From the NCBI RefSeq assembly GCF_000148995.1, contig NZ_GL538353.1:372001-436000 (forward strand): DNA of 64,000 nucleotides, written 5' to 3'. Positions 5,313-50,272 of the stretch are shown here, in pieces. The number at the start of each line of letters is the position of its first letter. Positions within the stretch are counted from its first letter, which is position 1. The position numbers and the translations under genes were made by a program. This stretch comes from Listeria grayi DSM 20601 (lineage in GTDB: Bacteria; Bacillota; Bacilli; Lactobacillales; Listeriaceae). Below the pieces are notes generated by a model. It was not told the DNA's origin. It made no database searches and saw nothing but the letters and a program-made list of their open reading frames with translations.

Positions 5313-6752
5313 TTGAAAGAACATTCGCAAGGACAAGAGCAGCTAAAACCTGTCTTGATTGTTGCTTCATTTTTGATCGCTGGCTTCATTGGTTTGTTTA
5401 GTGAGACAGCACTCAATATGGCGTTAACAGAACTTATTCAATTTTTCCATATTACTTCTGCCACAGTCCAATGGCTCACGACCGCCTATTTATTGACGCT
5501 TGGTATTTTGGTCCCGATCTCCGGATTGTTGATCCGTTGGTTTACCACGAGAGCGCTTTTTATAGCATCTGTCAGCTTTTCTATCGTTGGAACGCTGATA
5601 GCGGCACTTTCGCCTACATTTACGATGCTTTTGATCGGAAGAGTCGTTCAAGCAGTAGGTACGTCGCTATTGCTTCCATTGATGTTCAATACGATCTTGT
5701 TGATTTTTCCAGAACATAAAAGGGGTTCCGCAATGGGAACCATCGGTCTGGTCATTACATTTGCACCGGCAATTGGACCAACTGTTTCCGGGCTTATTGT
5801 TGAAAATCTGACTTGGAACTGGATCTTCTGGATATCACTACCGTTTTTAGTGATCGCACTTCTTTTTGGGATTCGTTTTATGCAAAACGTCTCTGAGATA
5901 ACGAAGCCGCGTATTGATGTTTTATCGATTATTTTATCTACGATCGGATTTGGTGGGATCGTTTATGGATTTAGTAGTGCAGGGGAAGACGGCTGGGGCA
6001 GTTGGATCGTGATCTTATCGATCGCGATTGGTGTCATTAGTTTGATCCTCTTCACGATCCGTCAGTTGAAAATGCCAAAACCGTTGCTTGATCTGCGTGT
6101 TTTCCGCTATCCGATGTTTACGACCGGATTACTGCTTGTTTTCTGTGCGTTTATGATGATTTTATCGACGATGATCTTATTGCCGCTTTATCTGAAAGCA
6201 GGAATTGGCTTAGCTGCGTTTAGCGCTGGACTCGTGTTGCTTCCCGGTGGTGTTATCAATGGGTTGCTTTCACCAATCACAGGTCGCTTGTTCGACGCAT
6301 TTGGTCCACGCGTATTAGCGATCCCTGGTTGTATCATTTCTGCTGGTATGATGGTCGGCTTTTTATTCTTAGACGTGAATACCTCTATCACGACGATCAT
6401 TCTGCTGCATAGTGGACTGATGATCGGGATCTCGATGGTAATGATGCCTGCACAGACTAATGGGCTGAACCAATTGCCGATCCAGTTATATCCAGATGGA
6501 ACAGCTGTTATGAATACCTTACAGCAGGTTTCCGGAGCAACGGGGACAGCTATTGCGATCACGATCATGACGGCTGGCCAAAAAGCCTATATGAAGACTG
6601 CGGGAAGCACAAGTCCACAAGAAATCAGTTTGTCACTTGTTCACGGCATTCACCAAGCCTTTTTCTTCGGCTTAGCGATTGCAACGGTGGCGCTAGTATT
6701 GTCGCTTTTCATTAAGCGCGCACATTCTGAAAAAACATTAAAACCAAGATAA
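5313..6752 (+). CDS. MFS multidrug transporter, DHA2 (14-TM, EmrB/QacA-like) family
   Basis: A 479-residue integral membrane protein with about 14 hydrophobic segments. The MFS motif region lies around WLTTAYLLTLGILVPISG (residues 54-71) and motif C-like GTIGLVITFAPAIGPTVSGL at residues 142-161, which is typical of proton-drug antiporters. The start is a TTG preceded by AAAGGGGGG; no ATG lies nearby in frame. The substrate cannot be read from sequence. It stands alone, with no adjacent regulator on its strand, and the T-box leader of the ProRS gene begins directly after it. Confidence 0.88.
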   Translation: MKEHSQGQEQLKPVLIVASFLIAGFIGLFSETALNMALTELIQFFHITSATVQWLTTAYLLTLGILVPISGLLIRWFTTRALFIASVSFSIVGTLIAALSPTFTMLLIGRVVQAVGTSLLLPLMFNTILLIFPEHKRGSAMGTIGLVITFAPAIGPTVSGLIVENLTWNWIFWISLPFLVIALLFGIRFMQNVSEITKPRIDVLSIILSTIGFGGIVYGFSSAGEDGWGSWIVILSIAIGVISLILFTIRQLKMPKPLLDLRVFRYPMFTTGLLLVFCAFMMILSTMILLPLYLKAGIGLAAFSAGLVLLPGGVINGLLSPITGRLFDAFGPRVLAIPGCIISAGMMVGFLFLDVNTSITTIILLHSGLMIGISMVMMPAQTNGLNQLPIQLYPDGTAVMNTLQQVSGATGTAIAITIMTAGQKAYMKTAGSTSPQEISLSLVHGIHQAFFFGLAIATVALVLSLFIKRAHSEKTLKPR

Positions 6753-6769
6753 AGGATCAGTAAAAATAG

Positions 6770-6952
6770 GTGCTGTCACACAGAGAAGAGAGATAAGCTG
6801 AGAACTCTCCTGACAAACTGTTTTGAACCTACCTTTTAGTTTGCCTATTATGCACGGTTTTCATACCGTTATCATGATCTGAGAGTAAAGCATTGCTTTG
6901 AAATAGGGTGGTACCGCCAGAAATGGTCCCTATCGAAGTAATGCTTTTTTTG
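6770..6952 (+). promoter_or_regulatory. T-box riboswitch leader of prolyl-tRNA synthetase gene
   Basis: The invariant T-box sequence AGGGTGGTACCGCC lies at 6905-6918. The terminator form pairs 6888-6909 with 6928-6945, followed by seven T, and the antiterminator would use the T-box bulge. A stem I region precedes it, with GAACCTACC at 6825-6833; CCT at 6828-6830 in the expected specifier position is a proline codon, which agrees with the gene it controls. A small ACGGT/ACCGT hairpin at 6854-6869 fits stem III. Uncharged tRNA-Pro should switch on transcription. Confidence 0.93.
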
Positions 6953-16559: not shown

Positions 16560-16871
16560 ATGCACGTTTTAATGGCTTGCGCAGGGGGAATGAGTTCTTC
16601 CCTATTAGCCAATTATTTAAGTAAAGAAGCAAAAAAAAATGATATTAGCGATTTCTATATCGAAGCTGTTGGTACGATGCGGGTAGCCAAAAAATTGACG
16701 GAACGAGGCTGGGATATTTTTCTATTGGCCCCCCAAGTACGCTTTCATAAAGAGATGTTGCTTCAAGAGTTAGCGGATTATGAGATCCCATTCCTACTGA
16801 TCGATGGCCCACTTTATACACCGATCGGAGCGCCGAAGCTGTTCGGACAGATGATGGAGCTGCTGAAATAG
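16560..16871 (+). CDS. Stand-alone PTS EIIB component, lactose/cellobiose family
   Basis: A 103-residue protein with the family's N-terminal phosphocysteine loop MACAGGMSSSLLANYL (Cys at residue 7). It would receive phosphate from an EIIA and pass it to a sugar held by an EIIC of the beta-glucoside/cellobiose type. Neither EIIA nor EIIC lies nearby, so it either pairs with a distant permease or has a regulatory role. GGAAGGGG precedes the ATG. A terminator hairpin immediately follows and has been split by, or duplicated around, the repeat element at 16907. Confidence 0.88.
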   Translation: MHVLMACAGGMSSSLLANYLSKEAKKNDISDFYIEAVGTMRVAKKLTERGWDIFLLAPQVRFHKEMLLQELADYEIPFLLIDGPLYTPIGAPKLFGQMMELLK

Positions 16872-16872
16872 A

Positions 16873-16906
16873 AAGACGTCTGTTTCTTAAATGAAACAGA
16901 TGTCTT
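16873..16906 (+). terminator. Terminator hairpin, left copy flanking repeat element
   Basis: AAGACGTCTGTTTC and GAAACAGATGTCTT around a TTAAAT loop lie two bases after the EIIB stop. It lacks a T tract because the repeat element begins directly after it. A near-identical hairpin lies at 17074. Confidence 0.7.
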
Positions 16907-17073
16907 AGCTTGCCCGAAAAATGCCCATCTTCGTCGTTGAAGCCTGCGTTCCGATGCTCACGTACACGAGTACGCTCCGCTTCGGTACTCAACTTTGCCT
17001 AGAATCTAATCATTTTTCGGGCAAGCTAAAGACAGAGCGAAAACATTTGAATGGTATTTTTCTTCAGTCTGAG
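16907..17073. repeat. Structured intergenic repeat element, copy 1
   Basis: A core of 121 bases (16907-17027) is bounded by a perfect 17-bp inverted repeat, AGCTTGCCCGAAAAATG and its complement. The inner part contains further partial pairing around GTACACGAGTAC. A tail (17028-17073) ends in TTTTTCTTCAGTCTGAG. The same arrangement with about 80 percent identity recurs at 34949. There is no coding potential. Both copies lie between two copies of a local terminator hairpin. It looks like a small mobile or self-folding element (MITE-like), not a known Listeria feature that I can name. Confidence 0.8.
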
Positions 17074-17107
17074 GCGTCTGTTTCTTAAATGAAACAGACG
17101 TCTTTTT
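17074..17107 (+). terminator. Terminator hairpin, right copy flanking repeat element
   Basis: CGTCTGTTTC and GAAACAGACG around TTAAAT, followed by TCTTTTT. It repeats the loop and stem of the hairpin at 16873 and retains the T tract, so it is the functional end of the EIIB transcript. Confidence 0.8.
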
Positions 17108-17183: not shown

Positions 17184-18302
17184 CTATTTATTTCGTTCTT
17201 GGAGTAAATGTTTGAAAACGAACGGTGCGATCAGATTTACAGAGATAGAGCGAAAGGTTTGATAGCCTACAACAAGCCCGACATTTGCAGAGATAGTGGT
17301 AGCAATCAAACTGATTTGGTCCATTCCGCCTGGAACGATCGCCAAGTACGTGGTCGTTTCTCCGTAATGAAAAAGCTGGTTCAATAACAAGCTGATACCA
17401 ACCATACAAAACAGTAATACGATATTACTGATGATCGCGCTGATAAAGAGAGTAGCTTTGTTGGCATTTCCTTTTAGATTGATGCCTAATCCGAAGTATA
17501 TACCAAGCGCCAATTGTGTGGCGCCGATGATCCCGTGGGGGACATTAAAGCCATGGATGCCGAAAATATTAAGAATACCAATACCGAGCAATGGACCAAG
17601 TAGTTGATGGATCGGCAAACGCAGGAATCTTCCTAAATCAGAAAACACCAAGACAGCGATAAGGAAAAATAAAATACTCGCCCAAGGAAACTGAGAAAGG
17701 AAATAATCGGAAGCAGCATTATGCGTTGCTACGGCTTGACTTTGATGATGAGCGCCAATCAGCGGTGTGTATAAAATAATAGGCACAAACAGGAAAATAG
17801 TGACCAAACGGAAAATCTGAAAAATCGAGACGATCGTTGGATCAAGATGTTTTTGCTCACGCGCATACAAGATCATCTGGGTCGCGCCGCCGGGCATACT
17901 GCCGGCAACCAGACTTTGGTAGTCCAATGTCGTCCATTTACTGATAAAGTAGCTGAATAGGATCCCAATCAAAATCAGCACGATGGTGGTGATCACCATG
18001 ATCGGTAGCTGGGAGATGATCAGTTTGAAAGTAGCAAGCGTGATTTTCGTACCGGCTGTATACCCAACGATCATTAGAGCTGCTAGGCGCAAAATGGCTG
18101 GAAAATGGAGCGGGATCTTATCAAACTGATTTAAAATCGTGATAATCAGCATCGGTCCAAGTAGCCAAGGTATTGGCAAGTGGATGAGCATGGCAAGTCC
18201 TGCCCCCGCAAGCCCTGCTAAGATCGTTAGTAAAAATGGGAATACGGTTTTTTTAATTGGAAGCTGCTTGGTATTCAGCAATGATCTCCGCCACCCGTTC
18301 AT
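17184..18302 (-). CDS. AbrB family transporter (PF05145)
   Basis: A 372-residue integral membrane protein with about ten hydrophobic segments and the duplicated family pattern: LPIPWLLGPMLI in the first half and LPIHQLLGPLLGIG in the second. SMPGGATQM and VPGGMDQIS are the paired PGG motifs. Family members are proposed regulators or transporters; the function is not established. Its start overlaps the end of the upstream MBL gene by about 50 bases; a TTG further in, preceded by GGAG, is an alternative. The MBL-AbrB pair forms an operon divergent from a TetR gene. Confidence 0.8.
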   Translation of the reverse strand: MNGWRRSLLNTKQLPIKKTVFPFLLTILAGLAGAGLAMLIHLPIPWLLGPMLIITILNQFDKIPLHFPAILRLAALMIVGYTAGTKITLATFKLIISQLPIMVITTIVLILIGILFSYFISKWTTLDYQSLVAGSMPGGATQMILYAREQKHLDPTIVSIFQIFRLVTIFLFVPIILYTPLIGAHHQSQAVATHNAASDYFLSQFPWASILFFLIAVLVFSDLGRFLRLPIHQLLGPLLGIGILNIFGIHGFNVPHGIIGATQLALGIYFGLGINLKGNANKATLFISAIISNIVLLFCMVGISLLLNQLFHYGETTTYLAIVPGGMDQISLIATTISANVGLVVGYQTFRSISVNLIAPFVFKHLLQERNK

Positions 18303-30912: not shown

Positions 30913-31006
30913 TAAAAAAAGCCTCCCTATTTATGTTGTCGTACATAATTTGGAAAGAGCTTCAAATAAGCGCGCGTCAAATAGACACTACACTCCTATA
31001 TGCAGC

Positions 31007-31071
31007 TCGTAGCCTAGCAATTTACGGTTGCTTGGTAGAAACGTCCGGACCCTATTTCCGAACTTATACGA
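31007..31071 (-). promoter_or_regulatory. Purine riboswitch (guanine class)
   Basis: Read on the minus strand, P1 arms TCGTATA/TACGA, the J1/2-P2 region ending GTTTCTACC and the P3 hairpin CAACCGTAAATTG match the purine aptamer. The specificity base before the 3' P1 arm is C (GGCTACGA), as in xpt-type guanine/hypoxanthine aptamers; adenine aptamers have U. It lies 95-160 bases before the permease start. I see no strong T-tailed terminator after it, so the switch may act partly on translation. Confidence 0.93.
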
Positions 31072-31143
31072 CTTGCTTATTGTAGCCCTTTTTCAGTCAT
31101 TACGCAATATAAAATTTTACTTGTATATTTTTATAAAAATTAG

Positions 31144-34928: not shown

Positions 34929-34948
34929 AGACAGCTAGATTGCTGTCT
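34929..34948 (+). terminator. Terminator hairpin, left copy flanking repeat element 2
   Basis: AGACAGC and GCTGTCT around TAGATT. The same 20 bases occur again at 35114-35133, on the other side of the repeat element; only the right copy keeps a T tract. Confidence 0.75.
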
Positions 34949-35113
34949 CAGCTTGGCGAAAAACGCTCATCTTCGTCGTTAAAGTCTGCGTTTCGATGCT
35001 CACGTACTTAAGTACGCTCCGCTTCGGTACTCGACTTTGCCTAGAATCTAATCATTTTTCGCCAAGCTGGGAATAGCTAGGAAATGATTGAAATGGTGTT
35101 TTTCTTCAGTCTG
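34949..35113. repeat. Structured intergenic repeat element, copy 2
   Basis: The core (34949-35069, 121 bases) is bounded by CAGCTTGGCGAAAAA and its exact complement. Its inner part matches copy 1 at 16907 closely (shared blocks such as TCATCTTCGTCGTT, GATGCTCACGTAC and TACGCTCCGCTTCGGTACTC). The end stems differ in a paired way (TTGGCG/CGCCAA here, TTGCCCG/CGGGCAA there), and the inner palindrome is GTACTTAAGTAC instead of GTACACGAGTAC. The tail again ends in TTTTTCTTCAGTCTGAG. It is non-coding. Confidence 0.82.
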
Positions 35114-35139
35114 AGACAGCTAGATTGCTGTCTTTTTTA
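35114..35139 (+). terminator. Terminator hairpin, right copy flanking repeat element 2
   Basis: AGACAGC-TAGATT-GCTGTCT followed by a T tract; exact repeat of the hairpin at 34929. It ends the PC4-like gene's transcript. Confidence 0.85.
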
Positions 35140-50131: not shown

Positions 50132-50153
50132 GATTTTAATAGAATAAACGCGA

Positions 50154-50250
50154 CTTATCTTTCAGTAAATACTGCTGGAATTAGCACCGTAAATTAAGAT
50201 TCCGGTTGCTAAGGCTTCAAAGGGCCAGTCCCTCCACCTTTCTAGATAAG
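50154..50250 (-). promoter_or_regulatory. SAM-I riboswitch (S-box) aptamer
   Basis: Minus-strand P1 arms CTTATCT and AGATAAG enclose the S-box landmarks AGGTGGAGGGACTGGCCC, TGAAGCCTTAGCAACC and GGTGCTAATTCCAGCAG. SAM binding should favour the downstream terminator and shut off metX. Confidence 0.97.
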
Positions 50251-50272
50251 AAATAGTTATAAAATTAGTTTT

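Follow-up and report, generated by a model that had tools for sequence, protein, structure and literature searches.

A Listeria repeat with IS1182-like ends that probably inserts at terminator hairpins and duplicates them

Introduction

EFAR elements reportedly integrate at stem-loop targets of 24-37 bp, and the paper on them is said to describe mostly deletion of the stem-loop. Efa-1 of Enterococcus faecalis, 163 bp long, is described in the accessible part of its report as two adjacent stem-loops (PMC2267715), and YPAL/RU-2 of Yersinia, of ~168 bp, is described in part of another as having TSDs of 3-26 bp and targets that span or adjoin dyads (PMC2229807). For IS1272 and TnSha1, IS1182-family elements of staphylococci, the accessible excerpts of two reports describe hairpin targets, several of them terminators, with no primary sequence preference, and insertions in which the hairpin is deleted or replaced with no TSD (PMC5678879, PMC4923244). 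The same excerpts report some IS1272 targets as non-IR (PMC5678879) and cite a 2015 review, according to which some IS1182 members target palindromes (PMC4923244). A duplication outcome corresponds to pathway b of the 2017 model for IS1272, as far as the excerpt presents it (PMC5678879).

That IS1182 elements target structures has been published before. In the openly licensed literature, our searches found no description of hairpin-duplicating insertion for Listeria or as a duplication, and no named Listeria repeat of such behavior, in line with an earlier note on this DNA whose author knew of none. Here, we analyze such a repeat, which occurs twice in a 64,000-nucleotide stretch of Listeria grayi DSM 20601 (the window), and we compare it with its copies and relatives in other genomes.

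Results

The repeat lies between the convergent ORFs 16560-16871 (+) and 17184-18302 (-), the first of which is named EIIB in the earlier note. The features of this site and of a second site in the window are as follows.

16874..16906, + strand: 5' target terminator hairpin, 33 nt, directly 3' of the stop codon that ends small ORF 16560-16871
16907..17071, + strand: candidate MITE, 165 bp between the hairpin copies
16905..16923, + strand: left arm of the 19-bp perfect inverted repeat of the core
17011..17029, + strand: right arm of the 19-bp perfect inverted repeat of the core
16927..16938, + strand: ATCTTCGTCGTT, left half of a conserved internal-loop module
16997..17007, + strand: GCCTAGAATCT, right half of the conserved internal-loop module
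16956..16978, + strand: tip hairpin GCTCACGTACnnnnGTACGCTCC, present also in alphaproteobacterial intergenic repeats
17030..17071, + strand: tail including the right end of the element; its reverse complement begins CAGACTGAAGAAAAA and resembles the right end of an IS1182-family IS
17072..17104, + strand: 3' target hairpin copy, then a T run
34929..34948, + strand: second site, 20-nt terminator hairpin of another sequence, 5' copy
34949..35113, + strand: second copy of the candidate MITE, 165 bp
35114..35133, + strand: second site, 3' hairpin copy, then a T run

The EIIB terminator hairpin is indeed present twice, as the earlier note had claimed, and the two copies are identical at 31 of 33 positions; the 5' copy has a folding energy of -18.8 kcal/mol and the 3' copy was detected as a 13-bp inverted repeat. 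The terminal inverted repeat of the core is perfect, as described before, but measures 19 bp and not 17. We also confirmed that the second locus (34929-35133) is organized in the same way, with a hairpin unrelated to the first. When folded as single-stranded DNA, the element forms two adjacent stem-loops (z -4.6). Its 165 bp are noncoding: among ORFs of at least 80 aa, the sole intruder is one minus-strand frame that runs mostly antisense to ORF 16560-16871. The repeat had no match in Rfam at the gathering level; at E values up to 1, two sub-threshold hairpin matches to a microRNA family were taken as chance. A phage search with the element gave no match, and a plasmid search with the whole element gave one, to the tip motif. 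Elsewhere in the window, Rfam elements comprise a T-box leader (6737-6934), a purine riboswitch (30990-31091), and a SAM riboswitch (50152-50252).

The core matched 4 of 25 Listeria genomes, its own included. We analyzed 52 copies: 18 from L. grayi (G000), where 22 core match rows were read as these 18 copies plus one split fragment; 21 of the 33 matches in L. fleischmannii (G006); and 13 from L. goaensis (G008), where 18 match rows yielded 14 retrieved regions and the fragment L084 was excluded. G021, which has the tip hairpin only, was left out of the count. A duplicated, site-specific hairpin was found at 43 of the 52 copies (14/18 in L. grayi; 20/21 in L. fleischmannii, including the diverged pair of L065; 9/13 in L. 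goaensis), and the hairpin sequence differs at each counted site. The remaining nine (L013, L016, L017, L018, L061, L073, L079, L081, and L082) showed no clear hairpin duplication; L061 has a repeat of 16 nt only, and some of the nine appear by eye to be truncated or degraded. With these exceptions, the counts support the earlier proposal of an element that is directed to intrinsic terminators and doubles their hairpin. The length of the element was 164-167 bp in 10 of the 14 duplicated L. grayi copies and 173-175 bp in 14 of the 20 duplicated L. fleischmannii copies.

The similarity of the flanks is not due to chance in L. grayi and L. fleischmannii, since most own pairs beat every cross-pairing: the similarity between the 5' and 3' flanks of the same copy exceeded the highest of 306 cross-pairings in 13 of 18 copies and the highest of 420 in 15 of 21 copies, respectively. 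This control was blurred in L. goaensis, where the own pair exceeded the highest cross-pair (87) in 1 of 13 copies only, a top score presumably due to nested or tandem copies; flank scores of at least 30 were reached by 7/13 own pairs versus 4/156 cross pairs.

Several copies deviate from the common form. In L063 of L. fleischmannii (C22), which is flanked by a pair of identical hairpins, the core palindrome lies in reverse orientation with respect to the tail, which suggests flipping through the core arms. Five copies of L. goaensis (L079-L083) have a common extra core segment, cgcctaacttctcacatggtcgggcaaactacgcccttcctgttttcagtca, and L082 has a tandem partial copy. L012 of L. grayi (C1:148219) measures 130 bp, with a reduced tail and an unusual right end, and still lies between two hairpin copies. 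Related palindromes occur in L. rustica (L311-L320) and in G021 (L085-L089); by eye, their outer arms vary from copy to copy while self-complementarity is kept.

The earlier note had suggested a search for a trans-acting partner sharing the ends of the repeat, and an IS1182-family transposase fits that description, encoded in other Listeria by an IS with matching ends and right tail. Transposase matches to PF13751 were found in 6 of the 25 Listeria genomes. The four intact IS copies that we measured are 1,522 bp long with a 471-aa transposase, which belongs to the IS1182 family (464 bits against NF033551, cut-off 270); homologues at E 1e-30 or better were found in 19 of 148 genomes of the order. 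The ends of the IS are CAGACTGTAGACAAAG and, reversed, CAGACTGTAGAAAAACG, and they match the repeat ends CAGACTGCTGACAAAC / CAGCTTGTAGAAAAAC of L. fleischmannii. In L. grayi, the ends read CAGCTTGGCGAAAAACG / CAGACTGAAGAAAAAC in most copies, with a T replacing the first C in the window copy, and the end of a Sutcliffiella IS reads CAGCTTGTAGACAAAG. The right tails of repeat and IS align, with ctTTGAG..TTTTTCTACA in both; the left end of the IS is a small hairpin followed by T's, and the outer arms of the repeat core look like it.

Hairpin duplication was seen at 16 of 31 distinct IS copies, two of them weak (L160 and L185), and at 3/3 plasmid IS copies checked, out of 329 records. Of the other 15 of the 31, which show no hairpin duplication, most are fragmentary or altered; the 11-nt repeat at L176 does not form a hairpin, and the flanks of L154 are unlike each other. 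In L159, L171, and L175, a hairpin plus T's lies just inside one end of the IS, and these look like inward-facing terminators. PF13751 was absent from the L. grayi, L. fleischmannii, and L. goaensis genomes in the profile search, and a protein search covering L. grayi and L. goaensis also gave no IS1182 transposase. Since these repeat-bearing genomes have no transposase match, the mobilizer is now absent from them or too diverged for the searches used. MITEs are not defined by having an autonomous partner in their own genome; what we found is a short noncoding element with matching ends, the same target behavior, and an autonomous partner in the genus.

To look at empty sites of the IS, the joined flanks plus one hairpin served as the query for four sites, and these queries matched sister species over their full length. 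For site 1, identity with the empty orthologue was 359/360 bases in G019 and 358/360 in G016; the best empty orthologues of sites 2, 3, and 4 were in G016 (98%), G018 (97%), and G014 (96%). At least one empty orthologue with a single hairpin was found at each of the four sites tried, so that empty sites with a single terminator, which the earlier note had proposed to seek, exist at 4/4 sites of the related autonomous IS. Among the empty loci inspected, the hairpin occurred once in 11 of 13, with no second match scoring above 24; at L209 and L210, the aligner missed the site-4 hairpin, and these two lend no support to the one-hairpin claim. For the repeat itself, a readable orthologous region was obtained for 3 of six sites tried. 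It came from G001 and G013 for the second window site and from G008 for L064 and L053, with L053 matched by its upstream flank alone. Each readable region has one terminator hairpin, of unrelated sequence. The orthologues are compatible with a single terminator before insertion, and this evidence is weaker than that from the IS.

These comparisons bear on two other explanations of the doubled hairpins. Replication template switching or recombination might double hairpins at terminators, with the repeat caught between them by chance. Hairpins are hot spots for template switching, and the inverted core of L063 shows that rearrangement occurs at such palindromes; nevertheless, unrelated sites have identical element ends, these ends match those of an autonomous IS, and a filled IS site exceeds its empty counterpart by the IS and one hairpin, so we judge this origin very unlikely. 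Alternatively, insertion might be untargeted and the survivors be those copies with terminators on both sides, a stop being needed on either side. The location of 43 of the 52 copies between terminator-like hairpins would agree with such a selection, which nonetheless would not yield near-identical flanking hairpins that are different at every site, nor would it account for IS empty sites with one hairpin. We regard it as extremely improbable, and the need for a stop on both sides, an option of the earlier note, is not required by the data, given that the identity of the hairpin pair is site specific.

The duplicated targets were characterized in a hand-picked sample of 41 sites (27 of the 43 repeat sites and 14 of the 16 IS sites); the sites outside it are mostly uneven or diverged copies, plus a few clean ones (e.g., L008 and L069). 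In these 41 hand-picked sites, the TSD is 19-33 nt long, with 15 distinct lengths, and its median paired fraction is 0.80 versus 0.36 in shuffles. In the same sample, a T run (at least 3 of 4) lies 3' of the 3' hairpin copy at 31/41 sites, and an A run lies 5' of the 5' copy at 26/41. By sequence, the target duplication tracks the length of the hairpin, with no fixed stagger, and target choice is directed by shape, the shape itself being duplicated.

Two further claims were considered and dropped. Selection acting on both hairpin copies was suggested by a first count of stem differences, in which 9/9 changed pairs were still pairable, but that count relied on the stem of the 5' copy only. In 22 copy pairs, a further count gave 6 changes with pairing kept, 7 paired in one copy and unpaired in the other, and 3 unpaired in both, using a simple mirror pairing that is off where the hairpin ends are uneven. 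Neither count serves here as evidence. A claim that elements lie in both orientations with respect to the A and T runs was dropped as well: an A run, a palindrome, and a T run read alike from either side.

Inside the core, ATCTTCGTYGTT stands opposite GCCTAGAATCT in an imperfect stem, forming an invariant internal loop between covarying stems. From 54 distinct sequences, we took 13 that were chosen for diversity and come from Listeria, Psychromonas, and two other Bacillota genomes. In this set, 95.1% of the cells are paired, 16 of the 22 pairs vary on both sides, and covariation scores 0.57 versus 0.15 in shuffles; these controls are generous because the sequences were diversity-chosen and the structure was named from them. 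A looser module pattern occurred 13, 7, and 5 times in Psychromonas genomes and 11 times in L. rustica, with 0 in the reversed control. The module was found in 3 of 299 genomes of a Bacillota sample, L. grayi included, and in 2 of 274 of a gammaproteobacterial sample, one being the Psychromonas center and the other (L240) probably a chance match; no viral contig had the pattern, and the conserved strings occurred in 0 of 19 IS loci checked. As seen at the window site and at L092, L094, L096-L098, L138, L139, and L141, the module is common to the Listeria repeats, Psychromonas repeats, and two genomes of another Bacillota class, and the repeats around it differ in their outer ends, CAG...CTG in Listeria and TATACCCAA in Psychromonas.

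Searched alone against plasmids, the tip hairpin matched 19 records. In the form GCTCACGTACnnnnGTACGCTCCGC, it occurs in plasmid repeats of Sphingobium, Agrobacterium, Phyllobacterium, and Legionella (L326-L329); the alphaproteobacterial plasmid repeats are intergenic, and by eye their flanks look like module arms. The tip string also lies within a table of Thalassospira small RNAs, as seen in an excerpt of that report (PMC6413936). In all, 17 papers contain one of four module or tip strings; among the 15 listed, most look by their titles like primer matches and were set aside. We tentatively raise the possibility that the inner palindrome stands as a module of its own, mobile or functional, which would make it a structured single-stranded DNA or RNA motif found across phyla in unrelated MITEs.

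Discussion

We consider it highly probable that the repeat is a MITE with IS1182-family CAGACTGTAGACAAA...TCTACAGTCTG ends, moved in trans by such a transposase, because its ends and right tail match those of the IS, it is inserted at the foot of a hairpin, and the whole hairpin is duplicated, and because the autonomous relatives behave alike and have empty sites with one hairpin. By sequence, the insertion point is the foot of a terminator-like hairpin. The target hairpin is likely extruded as a cruciform and recognized by the transposase, which would join the element to the cruciform at both of its 5' feet, as drawn for IS1272; gap repair would then leave one hairpin on either side of the element. 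Joining at the 5' foot versus the 3' foot would suffice to separate the duplicating from the deleting IS1182 branches. With a target that has an A run before and a T run after the hairpin, the left copy would have the A run on its outer side and the right copy the T run. Judging from this anatomy, a bidirectional terminator between convergent genes should work both ways after insertion, and terminators would therefore be safe landing sites.

Hairpins in RNA or single-stranded DNA could be alternative guides, in which case the same element would be targeted via nascent terminator RNA, an R-loop, or lagging-strand single-stranded DNA instead of a double-stranded cruciform. DDE transposases join to both target strands, and a cruciform offers a foot on each strand, whereas a one-strand hairpin does not. 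Conversely, most targets are terminator-like and hence transcribed, and 5 of 7 TnSha1 target hairpins are RNA-seq-confirmed terminators according to the accessible part of that report (PMC4923244). On balance, we hold guidance by RNA or single-stranded DNA to be rather unlikely, and we retain the cruciform as the candidate target of the IS1182-type MITE.

The comparisons, with the empty sites of the autonomous IS among them, are evidence that a family of DDE transposases can select targets by their shape and leave a duplication equal to the hairpin in length, an outcome that was drawn, and not reported, in the work on IS1272. They also suggest a route by which a repeat may fill intergenic terminators with termination unbroken, and cruciform-directed transposition becomes testable in laboratory strains.

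Compared by description, YPAL/RU-2 resembles the Listeria MITE in its length of ~168 bp and its dyad-associated TSDs and differs in its host, Yersinia. Efa-1, likewise compared by description, shares with the MITE its size and its fold of two stem-loops; EFAR reportedly deletes the stem-loop in most cases, whereas the Listeria MITE duplicates the hairpin. IS1272 and TnSha1 target hairpins irrespective of sequence, as the MITE does, but they delete or replace the hairpin without a TSD. The MITE agrees with the IS1182 CAGACTGTAGACAAA group in its ends and right tail, in having hairpins as targets, and in duplicating them whole; members of this group are annotated as "IS1182 family transposase," with relatives on E. 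faecium plasmids annotated as ISEfa7-like; the window element differs from this group in having no transposase and in carrying the inner palindrome module.
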